Shown piece after piece: positions 24,180 to 38,266 of a stretch of 64,000 nt of DNA. Numbering within the stretch: position 1 is the stretch's first letter; every line of letters begins with the position of its first letter. Below the pieces are notes generated by a model. It saw nothing but the letters and a program-made list of their open reading frames with translations. It did not search any database and had not been told where the DNA came from. The stretch comes from Alphaproteobacteria bacterium (GTDB lineage: Bacteria; Pseudomonadota; Alphaproteobacteria; UBA8366; Aestuariispiraceae), in NCBI GenBank assembly GCA_024743195.1, contig JANSXE010000001.1, forward strand, positions 124,001 to 188,000, given 5' to 3'. A program made the translations under genes and the position numbers.

Positions 24180-25388
24180 CTACTCCGCCGCGCGGGCGAG
24201 CGTTTCCGGCGCCGCGGCGAGGCTGGCGACCGCGGCCTCGAGCGCGCCGGCGCCGATCGGGACGCCGAGGCGCTTGAGCCCAAGATCGATCACCGCAAGG
24301 CCGCCCAGCACCATCGGCTCGTTGATGTCGCCCATATGACCGATGCGGAAGGCCTTGCCCTCCATCCGCCCGAGCCCGCCGGAGACCGAGACGCCGTAGC
24401 GCTCGCGCGCCAGGCCGCGGAGGCTTTCGGGATCGAATCCGTCGGGGACCAGCACGGTGGTCACGCTGTCCGCGCGGCTTTCCGGCCGGAGCGCATTGAA
24501 GGCGAGCGCGCCGCCCTCGGCCCAAACGGCGACCGCGGCGCGGACCGCTTCAGCAAGCCGTCGATGGCGGGCGACGGCGCCGGCCAGCGTCTCCTCGGCC
24601 AGCATCCGCACCGCCTCGTCGAGCGCGAAGATCAGATGCTCCGGCGCGGTGCCGCAGAAGCGCTTGTAGTGCGGGCCCGACAGCCGCTCCGCCCAGTCCC
24701 AATAGCGCCGCGGCGTCGACGCGGCGGCGGCGGCGGCCTGCGCCTTGTCGTTGGCGGCGACGAGTGCGAGGCCCGGCGGCGTCATCAGCCCCTTCTGCGA
24801 GGCCGCGACCGTCACGTCGACGCCCCAGGCGTCCATGCGGTACTCGGTCGTGCCCAGCGAAGCGATCACGTCGACCATGAAGAGCGCGTCGTGTCCGGCC
24901 GCGTCGATCGCCGCGCGGACGGCCTGCACGTCGCTGGTGACGGAGGCGGCGGTGTCCGTATGCACCATCAGCACCGCCTTGATCTCGCCCATGGCGTCGG
25001 CCTTCAACGCGGCCTCCACGGCGGCGGGGTCGATCGGCGTGCGCCAATCGTTCGGGATCGTGCGGCATCGGACGCCCAGCGCTTCGGCCAAGACGCGCCA
25101 GCCTTCGGAGAACTGCCCCACCTCCGGGATCAGGACCGCATCGCCGGGCGACAGCGTGTTCGCCAGCGCCGCCTCCCAGGCGCCGTGCCCGTTGGCGGCG
25201 TAGAGGAAGACCGGATGCGTCGTCTCGAAGAGCGCGCGCACGTCCTGGAACAGACGGTCGCTCAGCGCGACGAACTCCGGCCCCGAAAAATCGATCGGCT
25301 GGCGGTGCATGGCGGCCAGGATGCGTTCCGGCACCGGGGTCGGGCCCGGAACCATCAGCAGCTCCCGTCCTCTTTTTACGGTGGTCAT
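24180..25388 (-). CDS. Class V aminotransferase, serine-glyoxylate / alanine-glyoxylate type
   Basis: A 402-residue fold-type I PLP enzyme. MVPGPTPVPERILAAMHRQPIDFSG is the family N-terminus (first part shown), ANGHGAWEAALANTL binds the cofactor, and the PLP lysine is in ASQKGLMTPPGLAL. Such enzymes transfer an amino group from serine or alanine to glyoxylate; purine catabolic ureidoglycine-type activities are alternatives. ATG 25386-25388 is used rather than the frame to 25502. It is divergent from the EamA operon, whose dehalogenase could yield glycolate, one oxidation step from glyoxylate, so a metabolic link is possible but unproven. Confidence 0.85.
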   Translation of the reverse strand: MTTVKRGRELLMVPGPTPVPERILAAMHRQPIDFSGPEFVALSDRLFQDVRALFETTHPVFLYAANGHGAWEAALANTLSPGDAVLIPEVGQFSEGWRVLAEALGVRCRTIPNDWRTPIDPAAVEAALKADAMGEIKAVLMVHTDTAASVTSDVQAVRAAIDAAGHDALFMVDVIASLGTTEYRMDAWGVDVTVAASQKGLMTPPGLALVAANDKAQAAAAAASTPRRYWDWAERLSGPHYKRFCGTAPEHLIFALDEAVRMLAEETLAGAVARHRRLAEAVRAAVAVWAEGGALAFNALRPESRADSVTTVLVPDGFDPESLRGLARERYGVSVSGGLGRMEGKAFRIGHMGDINEPMVLGGLAVIDLGLKRLGVPIGAGALEAAVASLAAAPETLARAAE

Positions 25389-25561
25389 CGCGTAAGGCCC
25401 TTCAATCGCAACGCGCGTATGATAAGTACCGCATCGAGCCGGCCGGTCAACGCCGCAGGCGCAGGCGCGGCGTGGTCTCAGGGTTGATCCCCGGCGGCGC
25501 ATCTATTTGTCCCGAACCGGGCTTTCGTGCGCCCGGACCGGCAGGTAAGGTCCGCCGCACC

Positions 25562-26521
25562 ATGCGAGACGGATCCCCCGACAGCGCCGCCGAGGCGACG
25601 CCGCGCTATCTCGGTCTGCCCGAAGAACGGCTGGCCGGCCTTCTGTTGTTCGCAACCCCGCTGTTCTTCAGCGCCAACATCCTGGTCGCCAAGGCGGTCG
25701 CGGATCTGGTTCCGCCGGTGGCGCTGGCCTTCTGGCGCTGGGCGCTGACCTTCGCGATCCTCGCGGTCCTGGTGGGTCCGCGGCTGTGGGCGCGGCGCGC
25801 CGACATCGCGCGCGAGTGGAAGGATGTGCTGCTGCTCGGCGCCTTGGGCATGGGGGTCTGCGGCGCCTTCGTCTACATCGCCGCCGACACGACCAGCGCC
25901 ACCAACATCGGCCTGATCTATTCCGCGGCCCCGGTGCTGATCATCCTGCTCTCCGGCCTGATCTATGGGGAGACGCTGTCCGGCCGGCAGATCGCGGGCG
26001 TTACGGCCAGCCTCGCCGGCGTGCTCTGGATCATCGCGCGCGGCGATCCGGGCGTCTTCCTGACGCTCGACTTCACGACGGGGGATTTGTGGATCGTCGC
26101 CGCCATGATCGGCTGGGCGGTCTATTCGGTGTTGCTGCGCCACCGCCGGAGCGCGCTCGGCATCACCACCCGCTTCGCAGCAATCGTCGGCGGGGGGTGC
26201 CTCGTCCTCGCCCCCTTCGCCGTATGGGAGGCGCTGGCGGTCGGCCCGCCGACGCTGACGGCGAAGACGGTCGGCGTCGTGCTGTTCCTGGCGGTCTTCG
26301 CCTCCTTCCTGGCCTATCAGATCTACGCCTTCGTGCAGCGCTCGCTCGGCGCCGGGCGGACCAGCCTGCTCATGTATCTGATCCCGGTCTACAATTCGGC
26401 GCTCGCCTGGGCGTTGCTCGGGGAGCAGTTGGCGGCGTACCATCTGGTCGGCGCGGCGCTGGTGTTGCCCGGCATCTATCTGGCCACGCGCAATCCCCGG
26501 CCGCCCGCGGCCGGCCGCTAG
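25562..26521 (+). CDS. EamA-family (DMT) transporter
   Basis: A 319-residue integral membrane protein with two EamA repeats and about ten hydrophobic segments. The first repeat begins near residue 25 (LLLFATPLFFSANILVAKAV), the second near 165 (DLWIVAAMIGWAVYSVLL), and the segment ending LGAGRTSLLMYLIPVYNSALAW is typical of the second repeat. These proteins export amino acids and other small metabolites; the substrate cannot be told. It is the first gene of a forward operon, 24 bases before the dehalogenase-like hydrolase. ATG 25562 has a weak ribosome site. Confidence 0.85.
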   Translation: MRDGSPDSAAEATPRYLGLPEERLAGLLLFATPLFFSANILVAKAVADLVPPVALAFWRWALTFAILAVLVGPRLWARRADIAREWKDVLLLGALGMGVCGAFVYIAADTTSATNIGLIYSAAPVLIILLSGLIYGETLSGRQIAGVTASLAGVLWIIARGDPGVFLTLDFTTGDLWIVAAMIGWAVYSVLLRHRRSALGITTRFAAIVGGGCLVLAPFAVWEALAVGPPTLTAKTVGVVLFLAVFASFLAYQIYAFVQRSLGAGRTSLLMYLIPVYNSALAWALLGEQLAAYHLVGAALVLPGIYLATRNPRPPAAGR

Positions 26522-26545: not shown

Positions 26546-27472
26546 ATGCTCGACGGCTTCGAGAGCGCGCGGATCGAGGTGGGCCCGGGCCCGGAGATGG
26601 GCCAGGAAGAGGGCGCGAACGCGCTCTCGCTGCACGTCCGTCAGGGCGGCGAGGGCCCGCCGCTCCTGCTGCTGCACGGCTATCCGCAGACCGGCGCCAT
26701 GTGGGCGCCCGTCGCGGCCGAGCTGGCCAAGCGCTTCCGGCTGGTGATCCCGGACCTGCGCGGCTACGGCCGCTCCGACAAGCCGGCGTCGGACGCGGAC
26801 CACGCCGCCTATTCCAAGCGCGCCATGGCGGGCGACATGCTGCGCCTGATGAGCGCGCTCGGTCATGAGCGCTTCCAGGCCGCCGGCCACGACCGCGGCG
26901 GCCGGGTGCTGCATCGGCTGTGCCTCGACGCGCCGGAGCGGGTGGCGCGCGCCGCGGTCCTGGACATCGCGCCGACCGCGCACGTCTTCCAGACCACGGA
27001 CAAACGCTTGGCCACCGCCTATTACCACTGGTTCTTCCTGATCCAGCCGGCGCCCTTCCCGGAGCGGCTGATCGGGGCCGACCCGATCTATTTCCTACAT
27101 CACACGTTGGGCGGTTGGGGCTCGGGCCTGGACGCCTTCGCGCCGGAAGCCCTCGCGGAATACGAGGCGGCGTTCAGCGATCCGGAGACGATCCGCGCGA
27201 CCTGCGAGGACTATCGCGCGGCCGCCGCCATCGACCTCGCCCACGACGCCGCCGACGCGGACCGGCGCATCCAATGCCCGCTGCTCGCGCTCTGGGGGTC
27301 GAACGGCGTGGTTGACCGCCTCTACGACGTATTGGCAACCTGGGAGCGGAAAGCCGACCACGTCTCCGGCCGCGCCGTCGAGGCCGGCCACTTCCTGGTC
27401 GAGGAGGCCCCGCGCGAGACGCTGGAGGCGTTCCTCGATTTCTTCGAAACCGACGAAAAAAACACGGGGTGA
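26546..27472 (+). CDS. Haloacetate (fluoroacetate) dehalogenase-like alpha/beta hydrolase
   Basis: A 308-residue alpha/beta hydrolase. The nucleophile elbow is GHDRGGR with Asp116, so the enzyme uses an Asp nucleophile like dehalogenases and epoxide hydrolases. Residues matching those I recall for fluoroacetate dehalogenase RPA1163 are all present: Asp116, Arg117, Arg120, Asp140, the halide-pocket His161-Trp162 in YYHWFFLIQPAPFPE, Tyr223 and catalytic His282. The HW pair and following QPAPFPE separate this group from epoxide hydrolases. It would turn haloacetate into glycolate plus halide; natural substrate unproven. GGAAAGGA precedes ATG 26546; it lies within the EamA-to-M24 operon. Confidence 0.82.
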   Translation: MLDGFESARIEVGPGPEMGQEEGANALSLHVRQGGEGPPLLLLHGYPQTGAMWAPVAAELAKRFRLVIPDLRGYGRSDKPASDADHAAYSKRAMAGDMLRLMSALGHERFQAAGHDRGGRVLHRLCLDAPERVARAAVLDIAPTAHVFQTTDKRLATAYYHWFFLIQPAPFPERLIGADPIYFLHHTLGGWGSGLDAFAPEALAEYEAAFSDPETIRATCEDYRAAAAIDLAHDAADADRRIQCPLLALWGSNGVVDRLYDVLATWERKADHVSGRAVEAGHFLVEEAPRETLEAFLDFFETDEKNTG

Positions 27473-27645: not shown

Positions 27646-27677
27646 CCGCGCCTCAGCGAATCGAAAGGATCGCCGCC

Positions 27678-28406
27678 ATGGCCGACGACGCTTACCAGCA
27701 GGAGCGCGAGGACCTCGCCGCCGCCTTCCGATGGACGGCGCGCCACGGCATGCATGAGGGGATCGCGAACCATTTCAGCCTCGCCGTCTCCGAAGACGGC
27801 TCGAAGTTCCTGCTCAACCCTTACGGCGTGCATTTCAGCCGCATGAAGGCCAGCGACCTGATGCTGATGGACGCGAGTGCGGAGCCGGACCCGGATGACG
27901 ACCGGGTGGACCCGACGGCTTTCGCGATCCACGGGGCCTTGCACCGCAACGTCCCCCAGGCGCGCTGCATCCTGCATCTGCACCCGAAGTACGGCACCGT
28001 GCTGGCCTCGCTGGCCGACAGCGCGATCCCGCCGATCGACCAGAACAGCATGCGCTTCTACGAGCGGGTCGCGATCGACGACGGCTATGACGGCATGGGG
28101 CTCGGCGAGGAGGCGGAGCGGCTGTCGCGCACGCTCGGCAACAAGTCGGTGCTGATGATGGGCAATCACGGCGTCATGACGGTCGCCGACACGGTCGCCC
28201 GCGCCTTCGACGAGATGGTCTATCTCGAACGCGCCTGCGAGACCGTGGTCACCGCCTACATGACCGGCAAGGAACTGCGCGTCGCCCCGCATGCGGTGGC
28301 CGCCAAGACGGCCCAGCAATGGGCCGACTATCCCGGCTTCAGCGACAAGCACTTCCAGGCGCTCAAAGGCATCCTCGACGCGGAGGAGCCGGAGTACCGG
28401 CAGTAA
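27678..28406 (+). CDS. Class II aldolase/adducin-domain protein
   Basis: A 242-residue single class II aldolase/adducin domain. The metal-binding HLHPKYG stretch (about residues 98-104) supplies the His-x-His pair, and GNHGVMTVADTVARAF near 165 gives the third His region. The catalytic Glu seen in fuculose-phosphate aldolase is not evident, as in many uncharacterised members (FAIHGALHR instead), so the reaction may differ from aldol cleavage. AAAGGA precedes ATG 27678. It follows the small repeat gene by 32 bases and precedes the M24 gene by 189 bases. Confidence 0.85.
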   Translation: MADDAYQQEREDLAAAFRWTARHGMHEGIANHFSLAVSEDGSKFLLNPYGVHFSRMKASDLMLMDASAEPDPDDDRVDPTAFAIHGALHRNVPQARCILHLHPKYGTVLASLADSAIPPIDQNSMRFYERVAIDDGYDGMGLGEEAERLSRTLGNKSVLMMGNHGVMTVADTVARAFDEMVYLERACETVVTAYMTGKELRVAPHAVAAKTAQQWADYPGFSDKHFQALKGILDAEEPEYRQ

Positions 28407-28595
28407 CGGCGCAAAGACCGCCAAGGCGCTCCGTTCCAGCACAGGTGCGGGCGGCTTCCCCCTTCAAACTTCCTGTTCACGGGGGAGCGCTCTCGCGCCG
28501 GTCGAACCGGTCGCAATCGCGTCGCGATTGGAGCGGACGGCGGCGCGCCGGCGGGCCCAGCATCGGCGAAACGGTCGATGCTGGGAGGCGTTCCG

Positions 28596-29840
28596 ATGCC
28601 GTTGGAAGGCGAAAGCACCCGCGCCGCGCGCCAGCACGGCGCGATGGAGTACACCACCCCGCCCGTCGATCTCGACGCGGTGCGGCTCGAGCGGCTGGGC
28701 CGCATTCGGGCGGAGCTGAAGCGCCGTGGGCTGCCCGCCGCCCTGTTCCTCGACCAGATCAACTGCCGCTACGCGACCGACGCCACCAACATGCAGATCT
28801 GGTGCTCGCACTACGAGGCGCGCTCTGTCTTCGTGGCGGCCGAGGGACCGTGCATCCTGTTCGACTACGCGAACCTGCCGCATCTGGCCGAGGAGCTGCC
28901 GACCCTCGACGAGTACCGGGCGATGTCCACCTTCTACTATTTCACCGCCGGCGCGCGGGCGGAGGAGCGCGCCGGCGAGTTCGCCCGCCAGATCGCAGAC
29001 CTGATGCGCGCCCATGGGCAGGGCGACCGGCGGCTCGCCGTCGACCGTCTGGGCGCGCTCGGCGTCGCGGCGCTGGCGCATCAGGGGATCGAGGTCGTCG
29101 ACGGCGAGGCGGTGGCGGAGCAGGCCCGCGCGGTCAAGTCGGCCGACGAGGTCGCGCTGATGCGCGCCGCCATCGCCGCCTGTGAGGAGGGCTGCCAGGC
29201 GATGTGGGAGGCGCTCGAGCCCGGCGTCACCGAAAACGCGCTCTGGGCCAAGCTGCACGAGGCGAACATCCGCCTCGGCGGGGAGTGGATCGAGACGCGC
29301 CTCCTCTCCGCCGGCCCGCGCACCAACCCCTGGTTCCGGGAATGCTCCATGCGGCCGATCGAGGCGGGCGAGGTCGTCAGCTTCGACACCGACCTGATCG
29401 GCCCCTACGGCTATTGCGCCGACATCTCGCGCGCCTGGCTGTGCGGCGGCGGCGCGCCGAGCCCGGACCAGGCCGACCTGATGGCCCGGGCGCGCGATCA
29501 GATCGCCCACAACACGGCCATTCTGAAGCCGGGCAAGAGCTTCCGCGAGGTCTCGATGGAGGCCTTCGACGTCGGCGAGGCGTTCCTCTCCAACCGCTAT
29601 CCCAGCCTGATCCACGGGGTCGGGCTGGCCGACGAATGGCCCTCCATCAAGCACGCCCAGGATTTCGACGCCAAGGGCTATGACGGGGTGCTGGTCCCCG
29701 GCATGACGCTCTGCGTCGAGAGCTATATCGGCCGCGAGGGCGGCAAGGAGGGCGTGAAGCTCGAGGAGCAGGTCTTGATCACCGAGGACGGGGTCGAGAC
29801 CCTGTCGCGCTATCCGCTGGGCTTCGATCCGACGGTTTGA
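28596..29840 (+). CDS. M24-fold protein, candidate DMSP lyase DddP
   Basis: A 414-residue protein with creatinase-like N-domain and M24 catalytic fold. Metal-ligand candidates are Asp264, Asp266 (SFDTD), Asp276 (CADIS), His340, Glu375 (CVESY) and Glu390 (KLEEQVLI). Their spacing (2, 10, 64, 35, 15) equals that of the iron ligands I recall for DddP of Ruegeria (295, 297, 307, 371, 406, 421), and Asp346 falls at the DddP catalytic Asp377 position; Tyr335 matches Tyr366. M24 peptidases have a second His where this protein has ADEWP. GGGAGG before ATG 28596 sets the start. The 3' end overlaps the MFS gene by 31 bases. Peptidase remains the alternative. Confidence 0.75.
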   Translation: MPLEGESTRAARQHGAMEYTTPPVDLDAVRLERLGRIRAELKRRGLPAALFLDQINCRYATDATNMQIWCSHYEARSVFVAAEGPCILFDYANLPHLAEELPTLDEYRAMSTFYYFTAGARAEERAGEFARQIADLMRAHGQGDRRLAVDRLGALGVAALAHQGIEVVDGEAVAEQARAVKSADEVALMRAAIAACEEGCQAMWEALEPGVTENALWAKLHEANIRLGGEWIETRLLSAGPRTNPWFRECSMRPIEAGEVVSFDTDLIGPYGYCADISRAWLCGGGAPSPDQADLMARARDQIAHNTAILKPGKSFREVSMEAFDVGEAFLSNRYPSLIHGVGLADEWPSIKHAQDFDAKGYDGVLVPGMTLCVESYIGREGGKEGVKLEEQVLITEDGVETLSRYPLGFDPTV

Positions 29841-34240: not shown

Positions 34241-35389
34241 TCAGCGGTCCCCCTCTCCCCCGAGCCGCGCCGCAATATAGCCCTGGAACTCCCGCAGGCT
34301 CCGCTCCATCCAACTGAGCGGGCCGGGCCGTGACAAGGGCGCGGCGACGCCGCGGTGGATGCTCTCCACCAGCCCGCGGTCCTCGTCGTTCACCTGATCG
34401 AAGAAGGCCACGGTCTCGCTCAGATAGGCCTCCATGTCGGGCAGCGCCGCCAGCCGCTCCGGCGCGATCGAGGCGCCGAAGCGCACATGCACCTGATCCA
34501 CCGTCCGCGGCATCAGGGAAAGCCACCAGAGATGGTCGGGCGCGAGCACGAACATGAAGGCGGGAAAGACCGTCGGCATGAGGGAGGTGAAGCGCAGATC
34601 GCCGTGAAGATGACGATTGTCCGGCGCGGCGACGCCGTAGACGGCGTCCGGGTCTTTCGGGAAGGTCTGGCAGGTGTAGGCCGGGTGCGGCGGATGCGGG
34701 AAGCGGACGTCCTCGATCGGGCACCAGGCTCCGACGGTGCGGCGGTGCGCCACGGGGAGGTGATAGCTCTCCATGAAATTCTCGGCCAAGAGCTTCCAGT
34801 TGGTGCGCCAGAGATGGTCCTGGGTTGCGACCTGGACATAGCCTTCCGGCCGATAGGGGGCGACGGCCTCGCTCAGCGGCGCGAGGCGGGCGGCCAGATC
34901 CGGCGGATCGTCCGCCAGCGTCGCGAAGATCCAGCCGGCCCATTCGACGCAGGCGATCTCCGGCAGGCGATAGGCCGATTTGTCGAGCCCCTTCATCTGC
35001 GGCGCGCCGACGAGCCGGCCGTCGATCCCGTAGGTCCAGCCGTGATAGGGGCAGGAGAAGCGCTTGCCGCAGCGCCCGGACTGCGGCCCTTCCGGCAGCA
35101 GCAGCATCATGCGATGAAGGCAGACATTGGCGAAACAGCGGATCGAGCCGTCCGCTTGCCGGATCGCGACGATCGGCTGGTCGTTGATCTGATAGGTCAG
35201 ATAGGCGCCCGGCTCGCGGAGCGCGTCGGCCCGGCCGAGGCAGAGCCACTCGGTGGCGAAGATCCGCTCCCGCTCCATCGCGAGGAAATCCGGGTCGATA
35301 TAGGCCGCACGCGGCATGATGCGCGCGCGGTCCGCGGGGGCGTCGGCCAAGGCCGCGATTTCGGCCAGCGTTTCCTGAAGCGGCGCCAT
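34241..35389 (-). CDS. Rieske oxygenase large subunit, possibly acting on a quaternary amine
   Basis: A 382-residue ring-hydroxylating-type oxygenase. The Rieske ligands are Cys90, His92, Cys113 and His116 (CLHR, CPYHGW). The mononuclear iron site is ENFMESYHLPVAH with His210 and His215. The residue linking the two sites, normally Asp, is Glu207 here, as I recall for carnitine and choline monooxygenases and the glycine-betaine demethylase group. So a quaternary-ammonium substrate is more likely than an aromatic ring. No small subunit or reductase gene is adjacent, so a partner must be encoded elsewhere. Upstream of it in transcription lies an outer-membrane barrel gene. Confidence 0.82.
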   Translation of the reverse strand: MAPLQETLAEIAALADAPADRARIMPRAAYIDPDFLAMERERIFATEWLCLGRADALREPGAYLTYQINDQPIVAIRQADGSIRCFANVCLHRMMLLLPEGPQSGRCGKRFSCPYHGWTYGIDGRLVGAPQMKGLDKSAYRLPEIACVEWAGWIFATLADDPPDLAARLAPLSEAVAPYRPEGYVQVATQDHLWRTNWKLLAENFMESYHLPVAHRRTVGAWCPIEDVRFPHPPHPAYTCQTFPKDPDAVYGVAAPDNRHLHGDLRFTSLMPTVFPAFMFVLAPDHLWWLSLMPRTVDQVHVRFGASIAPERLAALPDMEAYLSETVAFFDQVNDEDRGLVESIHRGVAAPLSRPGPLSWMERSLREFQGYIAARLGGEGDR

Positions 35390-37103: not shown

Positions 37104-37288
37104 GGCGCTGCGACGCTCCCGTGCGGGGAAGATGGAAACCGCGGCCTGTAGCAGGCGTCCGTGACAGTATCGCGACGACCGCGCGGCCGCCAGCGCCCGT
37201 TGACGCTCGCCCCTCAATCGCTATGAAGCGGGGGACGGGCGCGACGCACGCTTGTCGCGCCCAGACCAGAGGGGGAAGTCGCCGCGCC

Positions 37289-38266
37289 ATGGATCTGTCG
37301 CTCGCCGCCGGAAATCTGCTCTCGCCGCCGGTTCTGTTCTTCGCGCTCGGCGTGGCGGCGGCGCTCGTCCGCTCGGATTTGAGCGTGCCGGAGGCCGTGG
37401 CGAAAGCGCTGTCGCTCTATCTCATGCTGGCGATCGGCTTCAAGGGCGGGGCCGCGGCGTCGGAACACGGGCTGGGCGCGGACCTGGCGCTCGTCATCGC
37501 GGCGGCTGCGGCGCTCAGCTTCACGATCCCCTTCCTCGCCTTCGGTTTCCTGCGGACGACGACCGGGATCGGGCGCATCGACGCGGCGGCGATCGCCGCC
37601 CATTACGGCTCGATCTCCATCGTCACCTTCATCGCCGCAACCACGGCGCTGACCGCGGCCGGCGTCGACTATCCGGGCATCATGGTGGCCGCCGCCGCCG
37701 CGATGGAGGTGCCGGCGATCGCGACCGCCCTGCTTCTGGCGCGCAGCGGCGCGTCGGCGGGAGAGCGGGTGGAGGGCGAGACGCCCTGGCGCGAGGTGCT
37801 GCTGAACGGCTCCGTGGTGCTGCTGGTGGGCGCCTTCATCATCGGCGTCGCGACCGGCGAGAAGGGCTTCGAGAGCGTCGCGCCCTTCATCGTCGACCCC
37901 TTCAAGGGCGTGCTGTGCCTGTTCCTGCTGGATATGGGCCTGGTGGCGGGGCGCGAATTGCGCCAGGTGCGCAAGCGGCTGACCCCAGCGCTGTTGGGAT
38001 TCGGCCTCTACATGCCGCCGATCGGCGGGACGATCGGAGCCGCGGCGGGCTGGCTGATCGGCCTAGACGCCGGGGGAATTGCGCTGCTTGCGACGCTGTC
38101 GGCCAGCGCCTCCTATATCGCGGTGCCGGCGGCGATGCGGCTCGCGCTGCCGGAGGCCAAGCCCTCCCTCTATCTTACGCTGTCGCTTGCGATTACCTTT
38201 CCTTTCAACCTGACCATCGGCATCCCGCTCTACATCAAGCTGGGATCCGTGCTGGCCGGCGGCTGA
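37289..38266 (+). CDS. sbtA: Sodium-dependent bicarbonate transporter SbtA-like
   Basis: A 325-residue membrane protein with about ten hydrophobic segments, of the Sbt_1 (DUF897) family. Landmarks include YLMLAIGFKGGAAASEHG, AHYGSISIVTFIAATTAL (the inner repeat containing a polar bend), and LFLLDMGLVAGRELR. The family includes cyanobacterial SbtA, which imports bicarbonate with Na+. AGAGGGGGA precedes ATG 37289. It is followed after 28 bases by a PII-like gene, the SbtB arrangement, which greatly supports the assignment. No carboxysome or RuBisCO genes are in the window. Confidence 0.85.
   Translation: MDLSLAAGNLLSPPVLFFALGVAAALVRSDLSVPEAVAKALSLYLMLAIGFKGGAAASEHGLGADLALVIAAAAALSFTIPFLAFGFLRTTTGIGRIDAAAIAAHYGSISIVTFIAATTALTAAGVDYPGIMVAAAAAMEVPAIATALLLARSGASAGERVEGETPWREVLLNGSVVLLVGAFIIGVATGEKGFESVAPFIVDPFKGVLCLFLLDMGLVAGRELRQVRKRLTPALLGFGLYMPPIGGTIGAAAGWLIGLDAGGIALLATLSASASYIAVPAAMRLALPEAKPSLYLTLSLAITFPFNLTIGIPLYIKLGSVLAGG

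Follow-up and report, generated by a model that had tools for sequence, protein, structure and literature searches.

A DddP-like protein with the complete DddP active site in a clade separate from the crystallised DMSP lyases

The window, i.e. the whole stretch of 64,000 nucleotides that was analysed, carries a gene for an M24-fold protein resembling the DMSP lyase DddP (Table 1). The frame is open from ATG 28578 or ATG 28596 through the stop ending at 29840, and we consider the second ATG the better start because of the GGGAGG element 7 nt upstream; residue numbers of the window protein count from it. Three genes on the same strand precede it, for an EamA transporter, an alpha/beta hydrolase and a class II aldolase/adducin-like protein, and downstream follow an MFS gene in convergent orientation and a LysR gene, with a Rieske oxygenase gene approximately 4.4 kb beyond the DddP-like gene on the opposite strand. 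No acrylate-pathway gene is present among the nine annotated neighbours, and a promoter and terminator scan returned nothing above shuffles.

Table 1. Features of the locus and aligned active-site positions (window coordinates; residue equivalences refer to RdDddP unless stated).
Feature	Position	Strand	Basis or remark
Class V aminotransferase	24180-25502	-	closest model BhcA (L-aspartate-glyoxylate aminotransferase), 359 bits, cut-off 650
EamA transporter, upstream	25472..26521	+	Pfam
Alpha/beta hydrolase, upstream	26546..27472	+	Pfam
Class II aldolase/adducin-like gene, upstream	27672..28406	+	NF005689, 367 bits, over cut-off 260
Shine-Dalgarno-like GGGAGG	28583..28588	+	7 nt 5' of ATG 28596
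DddP-like M24-fold protein, 414 aa	28596..29840	+	ORF; alternative start ATG 28578
Trp69 = Rl Trp95, taken as conserved substrate-contact Trp	28800..28802	+	alignment
Asp264, metal ligand = Asp295	29385..29387	+	alignment
Asp266, metal ligand = Asp297, residue not conserved with methionine aminopeptidases	29391..29393	+	alignment
Asp276, metal ligand = Asp307	29421..29423	+	alignment
Tyr335 = Tyr366	29598..29600	+	alignment
His340, metal ligand = His371	29613..29615	+	alignment
Asp346, proposed catalytic base = Asp377	29631..29633	+	alignment
Glu375, metal ligand = Glu406	29718..29720	+	alignment
Glu390, metal ligand = Glu421	29763..29765	+	alignment
Rieske ring-hydroxylating oxygenase subunit	34241-35389	-	best NCBIfam GbcA (glycine betaine monooxygenase), 139 bits, cut-off 670
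Sbt_1-type sodium-dependent bicarbonate transporter family protein	37121-38266	+	376 bits

DddP converts DMSP to dimethyl sulfide (DMS) and acrylate, an important step of the marine sulfur cycle. Among NCBIfam models, the best match to the window protein is the DMSP lyase DddP model NF043017 at about 435 bits (434.5-435.1, E 2.8e-130), under its curated equivalog cut-off (435.1 vs 600 bits). A PDB search returned RdDddP (E 1.4e-106) and RlDddP (4.4e-103), to which the protein is 46% and 44% identical, and the next family followed at 2.6e-12. The resemblance to the DddP family is hence far above chance, as judged from the E values of the best NCBIfam and PDB matches. An orthologue with 86-87% identity is encoded in a sister genome, the closest named relative stems from a Kiloniellaceae MAG (84%), and several of the nearest MAGs are marine going by title or lineage, for example REDSEA, ALOHA and SAR324. 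Going by the Kiloniellaceae relative, the window probably stems from a Kiloniellaceae-like alphaproteobacterium.

An AlphaFold2 monomer model of the window protein (33 sequences, pLDDT 89.4, pTM 0.89) superposes on 4rzy with a TM score of 0.90 at 1.7 A in Foldseek, and with Z 47.4 and rmsd 2.3 over 410 aligned residues in VIA-align, where the next family after DddP is Xaa-Pro dipeptidase (Z 34.3). As modelled, the window protein has the DddP fold. Residues 68-70 around Trp69 have pLDDT below 50. In the region of the loop-helix appendix of RdDddP (residues 10-50), the window protein has just 24 residues ahead of the common core; pLDDT is below 50 in the first 9, yet the structural alignment begins at model residue 4. 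The N-terminus is thus shorter than in RlDddP, which has 50 residues ahead of the aligned core.

The metal ligands of RdDddP are reported as Asp295, Asp297, Asp307, His371, Glu406 and Glu421, with Tyr366 and Asp377 as candidate catalytic residues (Hehemann et al., PMC4108388). According to the published accounts, all six ligands (three Asp, two Glu and one His) are required for activity (PMC4108388, PMC5395565), and a review states that the sulfur is held by a Trp and a Tyr and that the two M24 histidines are replaced by Asp and Phe (PMC5395565). All six ligands are present in the window protein, with a spacing of 2, 10, 64, 35 and 15 residues that is identical to RdDddP, as the preliminary description had stated for DddP. 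Its further observations, an Asp at the catalytic position and the loss of the second M24 histidine, were likewise confirmed: the catalytic pair is kept as Tyr335 and Asp346, and Asp346 and Phe247 (position 278 per our own alignment) occupy the M24 histidine positions. Trp69 aligns to the residue that we take to be the substrate-contact Trp95 in RlDddP numbering. Overall, the window protein shares with RdDddP (PDB 4B28) and RlDddP (4RZY) the fold, the six equally spaced ligands and the active-site Trp, Tyr, Asp and Phe, but is only 44-46% identical to them and belongs to a separate clade. Beside the metal ligands, it further shows changes such as Ser for Ala407 (in 86% and 88% of rows) and Glu for Asp422 (in 95% and 94%), which are typical of the clades without being absolute.

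Alternatively, the protein may be an M24 peptidase or an ectoine-hydrolase-like C-N hydrolase, in line with its Pfam matches to Peptidase_M24 and Creatinase_N and with the annotation of relatives as Xaa-Pro peptidase. We regard this as improbable. The M24B peptidases (PepQ, PepE, aminopeptidase P) and the ectoine hydrolase DoeA have the pita-bread fold in common with the window protein, but they possess a five-ligand site and conserved histidines at approximately 20% identity, whereas the window protein has the sixth ligand, Asp266, and Asp346 and Phe247 in place of the M24 histidines; the conserved substrate-binding histidines of M24B peptidases were not found in the alignment. In agreement, the ectoine hydrolase and PepQ models of NCBIfam reach 50 and 42 bits, against 435 for DddP.

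The relationship to the characterised enzymes was analysed in two trees, a quick one with 105 rows and a careful one with 61, which agree in their main clades. The tree set is without 23 further Mesorhizobium-type loci, L002, L040, L046 (partial), L161, L162, L193 and short-flank duplicates. L018, for which the family cluster contains no full-length ORF, stands outside the counts, and L002 and L088 both correspond to the window gene itself. Because L161 duplicates L021 and further loci are close relatives, clade counts are numbers of loci, not of independent lineages. A canonical clade unites the crystallised roseobacter enzymes, the Oceanisphaera type, Ferruginivarius and a canonical copy from the genome of the window (support 100 in the quick and 100/100 in the careful tree), and it is joined with a Mesorhizobium type (98 and 100/99). 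The window protein lies inside another clade of 48 rows (100 and 100/100), the window clade, which consists mostly of MAGs named Gammaproteobacteria, Acidiferrobacteraceae, Arenicellales, SAR324, Thioglobus or Kiloniellaceae, many of them probably marine. A Kiloniellales type groups with it in the quick tree (support 90), a grouping that the careful tree leaves open. A constrained placement of the window protein within the clade of crystallised DddPs is rejected (AU p 1e-90), while a single clade of canonical and window-clade proteins is not (p = 0.071), and a sister relationship of the two is possible. DddP-like genes on MAG contigs assigned to Chloroflexi and Nocardioidaceae (L060, L063) are nested in the rhizobial clade, through horizontal transfer or misbinned contigs.

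The window protein is thus placed outside the clade of the two crystallised DddPs, the result that the preliminary description had named as speaking against its assignment. We do not consider this placement fatal, because the DddP of the scallop symbiont HWgs001, a proven lyase, probably has a short N-terminus as well and is close to the divergent DddP2 of Oceanimonas doudoroffii. Expressed in E. coli, the HWgs001 enzyme is reported to form DMS from DMSP; it is described as closest to O. doudoroffii DddP2 (55%), with DddP1 on a separate branch, and its active-site Asp is printed as D263 (PMC10989825). Going by the residues reported there, it has the same six ligands as the window protein. The first Asp, printed as 263, is at 264 in the window protein and near 295 in the canonical enzymes, and judged from these printed numbers HWgs001 DddP is probably short at the N-terminus like the window protein. 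Short, divergent members of the family hence seem to include DMSP lyases. In G849, a genome from the Oceanisphaera-like genus group, three family copies are present (L209, L213 and L215), two of the canonical type and a short one of the L120 type. In the short copy, the His-to-Glu spacing is 36; a likeness to HWgs001 DddP in this spacing, assuming that the printed E385 should read E375, is suggestive only.

How diagnostic the active site is becomes apparent from its distribution. The ten positions W95, H98, D295, D297, D307, Y366, H371, D377, E406 and E421 are identical in 134 of the 148 family proteins; the 14 that differ include one partial sequence. All ten are kept in every tree-set row of the window clade (48/48), the canonical clade (21/21), the Mesorhizobium type (11/11) and the Kiloniellales type (5/5), and in 5 of the 7 rows of the 'BET' group of plasmid-type relatives, with Arg for His98 in the other 2. 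The 2-10-64-35-15 spacing also occurs in 4 of 4 'P3' paralogues with Gly for Asp377, three of which have all six ligands, and within the window clade the 64 is replaced by 63 in 34 of 48 members and by 68 in 2. The spacing argument of the preliminary description is therefore correct for the window protein and weaker as evidence for DddP than proposed: as paralogues without the catalytic Asp have the spacing, we reject it as a diagnostic of DddP. The signature rather marks a whole superclade and not only proven DMSP lyases.

The 4.17 Mb assembly that holds the window (contig C15:124001-188000) was scanned with the DddP model, revealing four strong family members, at C31:59465 (603.7 bits), in the window (434.5), at C20:170272 (349.1) and at C14:94067 (291.2); three more matches are weak, at less than 25 bits. 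The copy on C31 (L001, G000:C31:59465-60775) shares family and catalytic residues with the window protein at 48% identity, but unlike it exceeds the 600-bit cut-off and falls within the canonical clade. With a canonical copy elsewhere in the genome, the window copy may have another job. In the two lower-scoring copies (L003, G000:C20:170272-171474; L004, G000:C14:94067-95227), Gly is found at the catalytic Asp377 position, and L004 additionally has Gly for the ligand Asp297. Four copies, two of them without the catalytic Asp, could also point to the window gene being a redundant or decaying paralogue without distinct function. This is highly improbable considering its open frame, the retention of all catalytic residues, the 86-87% identical orthologue in the sister genome and the widespread clade. 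Regarding other DMSP enzymes, the best DmdA-like match in the genome scores 370 bits, under the cut-off of 410, and there is one match to the cupin DMSP_lyase domain (83 bits), a Pfam family that does not discriminate, as it is over its cut-off in 13 of the 14 genomes given.

Based on the shared fold and the same complete active site, we propose that the window protein operates with the chemistry of DddP, i.e. elimination from an onium carboxylate, which we consider likely from sequence and model. It would be a cytosolic, homodimeric lyase with a two-metal centre, probably of iron, in which the metal would hold the substrate carboxylate, and Trp69 and Tyr335 the onium head. Asp346 would then take the alpha proton, upon which the beta bond would break to give acrylate and a neutral methylated leaving group; with DMSP as substrate, the products would be DMS and acrylate. 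Dimer, metal identity and elimination chemistry are carried over by analogy from the work on RdDddP and RlDddP, and DMSP is the presumed substrate. The identification as DddP is upheld for family, metal site, Tyr/Asp pair and fold, but not by the score (435 vs 600 bits) or the position outside the canonical clade. That DMSP is cleaved at a meaningful rate is an assumption towards which we lean only slightly, and the protein should be called DddP-like rather than DddP, pending an assay. A literature search by titles and opening lines, covering native and promiscuous substrates of DddP, Kiloniellaceae, Mesorhizobium/Rhizobium and beta-alanine betaine, brought up no test of a window-clade protein.

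The gene context of the relatives bears on the substrate. Clusters of neighbouring genes were named from one or few annotated members and from plasmid annotation. Within 9 kb, an MttB-like methyltransferase is encoded at 14 of the 52 window-clade loci and at 29 of the 34 loci of the Mesorhizobium type; among the window-clade loci, 6 further have a FAD/GcvT-domain gene and 4 a choline dehydrogenase. One or more genes from the methylated-amine set are found at 19/52 window-clade, 32/34 Mesorhizobium-type, 5/8 BET, 1/5 Kiloniellales-type, 2/5 P3, 2/5 unplaced and 2/13 roseobacter-type loci, and at 5/10 other canonical loci, there mostly a BCCT transporter. Of 23 genomes searched for MttB, 19 belong to the window clade; 15 of these together contain 115 copies in 42.1 Mb, or 134 in 59.6 Mb if the four from the own family (19 in 17.5 Mb) are included. 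At these densities, the window-clade flanks, 636 kb in total, would be expected to contain approximately 1.7 (15 genomes) or 1.4 copies (with the own family), compared to the 14 of 52 loci observed, an enrichment without a fair P value because the loci are related. Seven plasmid stretches were viewed, selected from the 60 that were listed out of 327 records. In five, the relative lies among genes for MttB, sarcosine oxidase, Rieske oxygenase, betaine-homocysteine methyltransferase, hydroxyproline epimerase, and BCCT or glycine betaine ABC transporters; relatives with the same active site occur inside such betaine clusters in rhizobia and a soil bacterium. The other two lack methylated-amine genes, one of them being a canonical Oceanisphaera dddP with a TRAP transporter.

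At L037, L040, L041 and L043, clusters of an acyl-CoA ligase and an enoyl-CoA hydratase flank the gene, accompanied in three by a choline dehydrogenase cluster. In the one member annotated from each cluster, the ligase matches NDP-forming acyl-CoA ligase at 240 bits and the hydratase crotonobetainyl-CoA hydratase at 321 bits, each below the cut-off, and the choline dehydrogenase exceeds its own. A ligase and a hydratase beside the lyase fit what would be needed if an unsaturated acid were released, for acrylate and betaine products alike. As a separate observation, L010, L012, L013 and L017 share a gammaproteobacterial block, annotated on L010 and recognised in the others by similarity cluster, of a subtilase (S8), the DddP-like protein, a membrane dipeptidase (M19), an approximately 580-residue protein that matched no NCBIfam or Pfam model, DUF3726 and an MFS transporter.

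These contexts raise the possibility that the window protein is a DddP-fold lyase or hydrolase of a nitrogen betaine, converting for example beta-alanine betaine to trimethylamine and acrylate, or acting on another quaternary amine, with DMSP at most a side substrate. We regard this as a serious alternative, though on balance the less likely one. The MttB counts at window-clade and Mesorhizobium-type loci, the five plasmid clusters and the ligase, hydratase and choline dehydrogenase genes argue for it, but the loci are related and their counts not independent trials, 38 of the 52 window-clade loci are without an MttB cluster within 9 kb (some flanks being short), and the two remaining plasmid stretches lack such genes or hold a canonical dddP. 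Moreover, the five MttB genes of the own genome are all distant from the window gene, the nearest approximately 142 kb off, and the window protein shares its active site with proven DMSP lyases.

The immediate neighbourhood of the window gene was compared for conservation, using seven neighbours against the other loci at E 1e-8. Relatives of the alpha/beta hydrolase (35-39%) occur at the same distance in three window-clade loci of another genus of the family. A Rieske relative of 25-30% recurs in two window-clade loci, and the class V aminotransferase and LysR in one each; the aldolase, EamA and MFS neighbours recur in none of the window-clade loci compared. A 59% relative of the aldolase adjoins the DddP-like gene of L183, from another family group, on the opposite strand. 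In a genome of the same genus (L157), the gene is flanked by a PaaG-type hydratase and a leucyl aminopeptidase, and none of the seven neighbours is matched beside it. An acrylate pathway at L157 was considered and rejected, as the enoyl-CoA hydratase directly upstream scores as PaaG (397 bits, over the cut-off of 345).

Extending the betaine reading to the clade, we put forward as a speculative proposal, which we think rather unlikely, that the large sister clade (Gammaproteobacteria, SAR324 and Kiloniellaceae, many probably marine) comprises DddP-like lyases whose DddP-type active site serves to cleave nitrogen betaines; the methylated amine and unsaturated acid so formed would feed nearby MttB, demethylase and acyl-CoA genes. 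If so, DMSP cleavage by DddP would represent one specialisation of an older betaine-lyase family, and counts of dddP in oceans and sediments would be inflated by enzymes that produce no DMS in nature. The latter point depends on how dddP is counted. Under a published rule of 40% identity and 70% coverage, applied here against RdDddP or RlDddP, all 34 Mesorhizobium-type and 5 Kiloniellales-type proteins pass, as do, narrowly (40.0-45.8%), all 52 located window-clade proteins; identity limits of this kind cannot tell the clades apart. An E value of 1e-30 is likewise reached by each of the 131 family proteins compared, also by those lacking the catalytic Asp, in BLAST against RdDddP and RlDddP only; the published 1e-30 threshold is described as that of an HMM search. 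A sediment survey reports Mesorhizobium and Pseudomonas as prominent dddP carriers and predicts dddP in 37.8% of the bacteria in its sediments on average (PMC7039863). In another study, most hits are reported to group with ratified enzymes, and both environmental DddPs made were active (PMC8520302); as reported, this phylogeny check and the two active enzymes may speak against an overcount. If the window and Mesorhizobium-type clades do not cleave DMSP, dddP estimates are too high, and if they do, DMS production extends to SAR324, sponge-symbiont and rhizobial lineages. The genome of the window, with its four family members, represents a ready test case.
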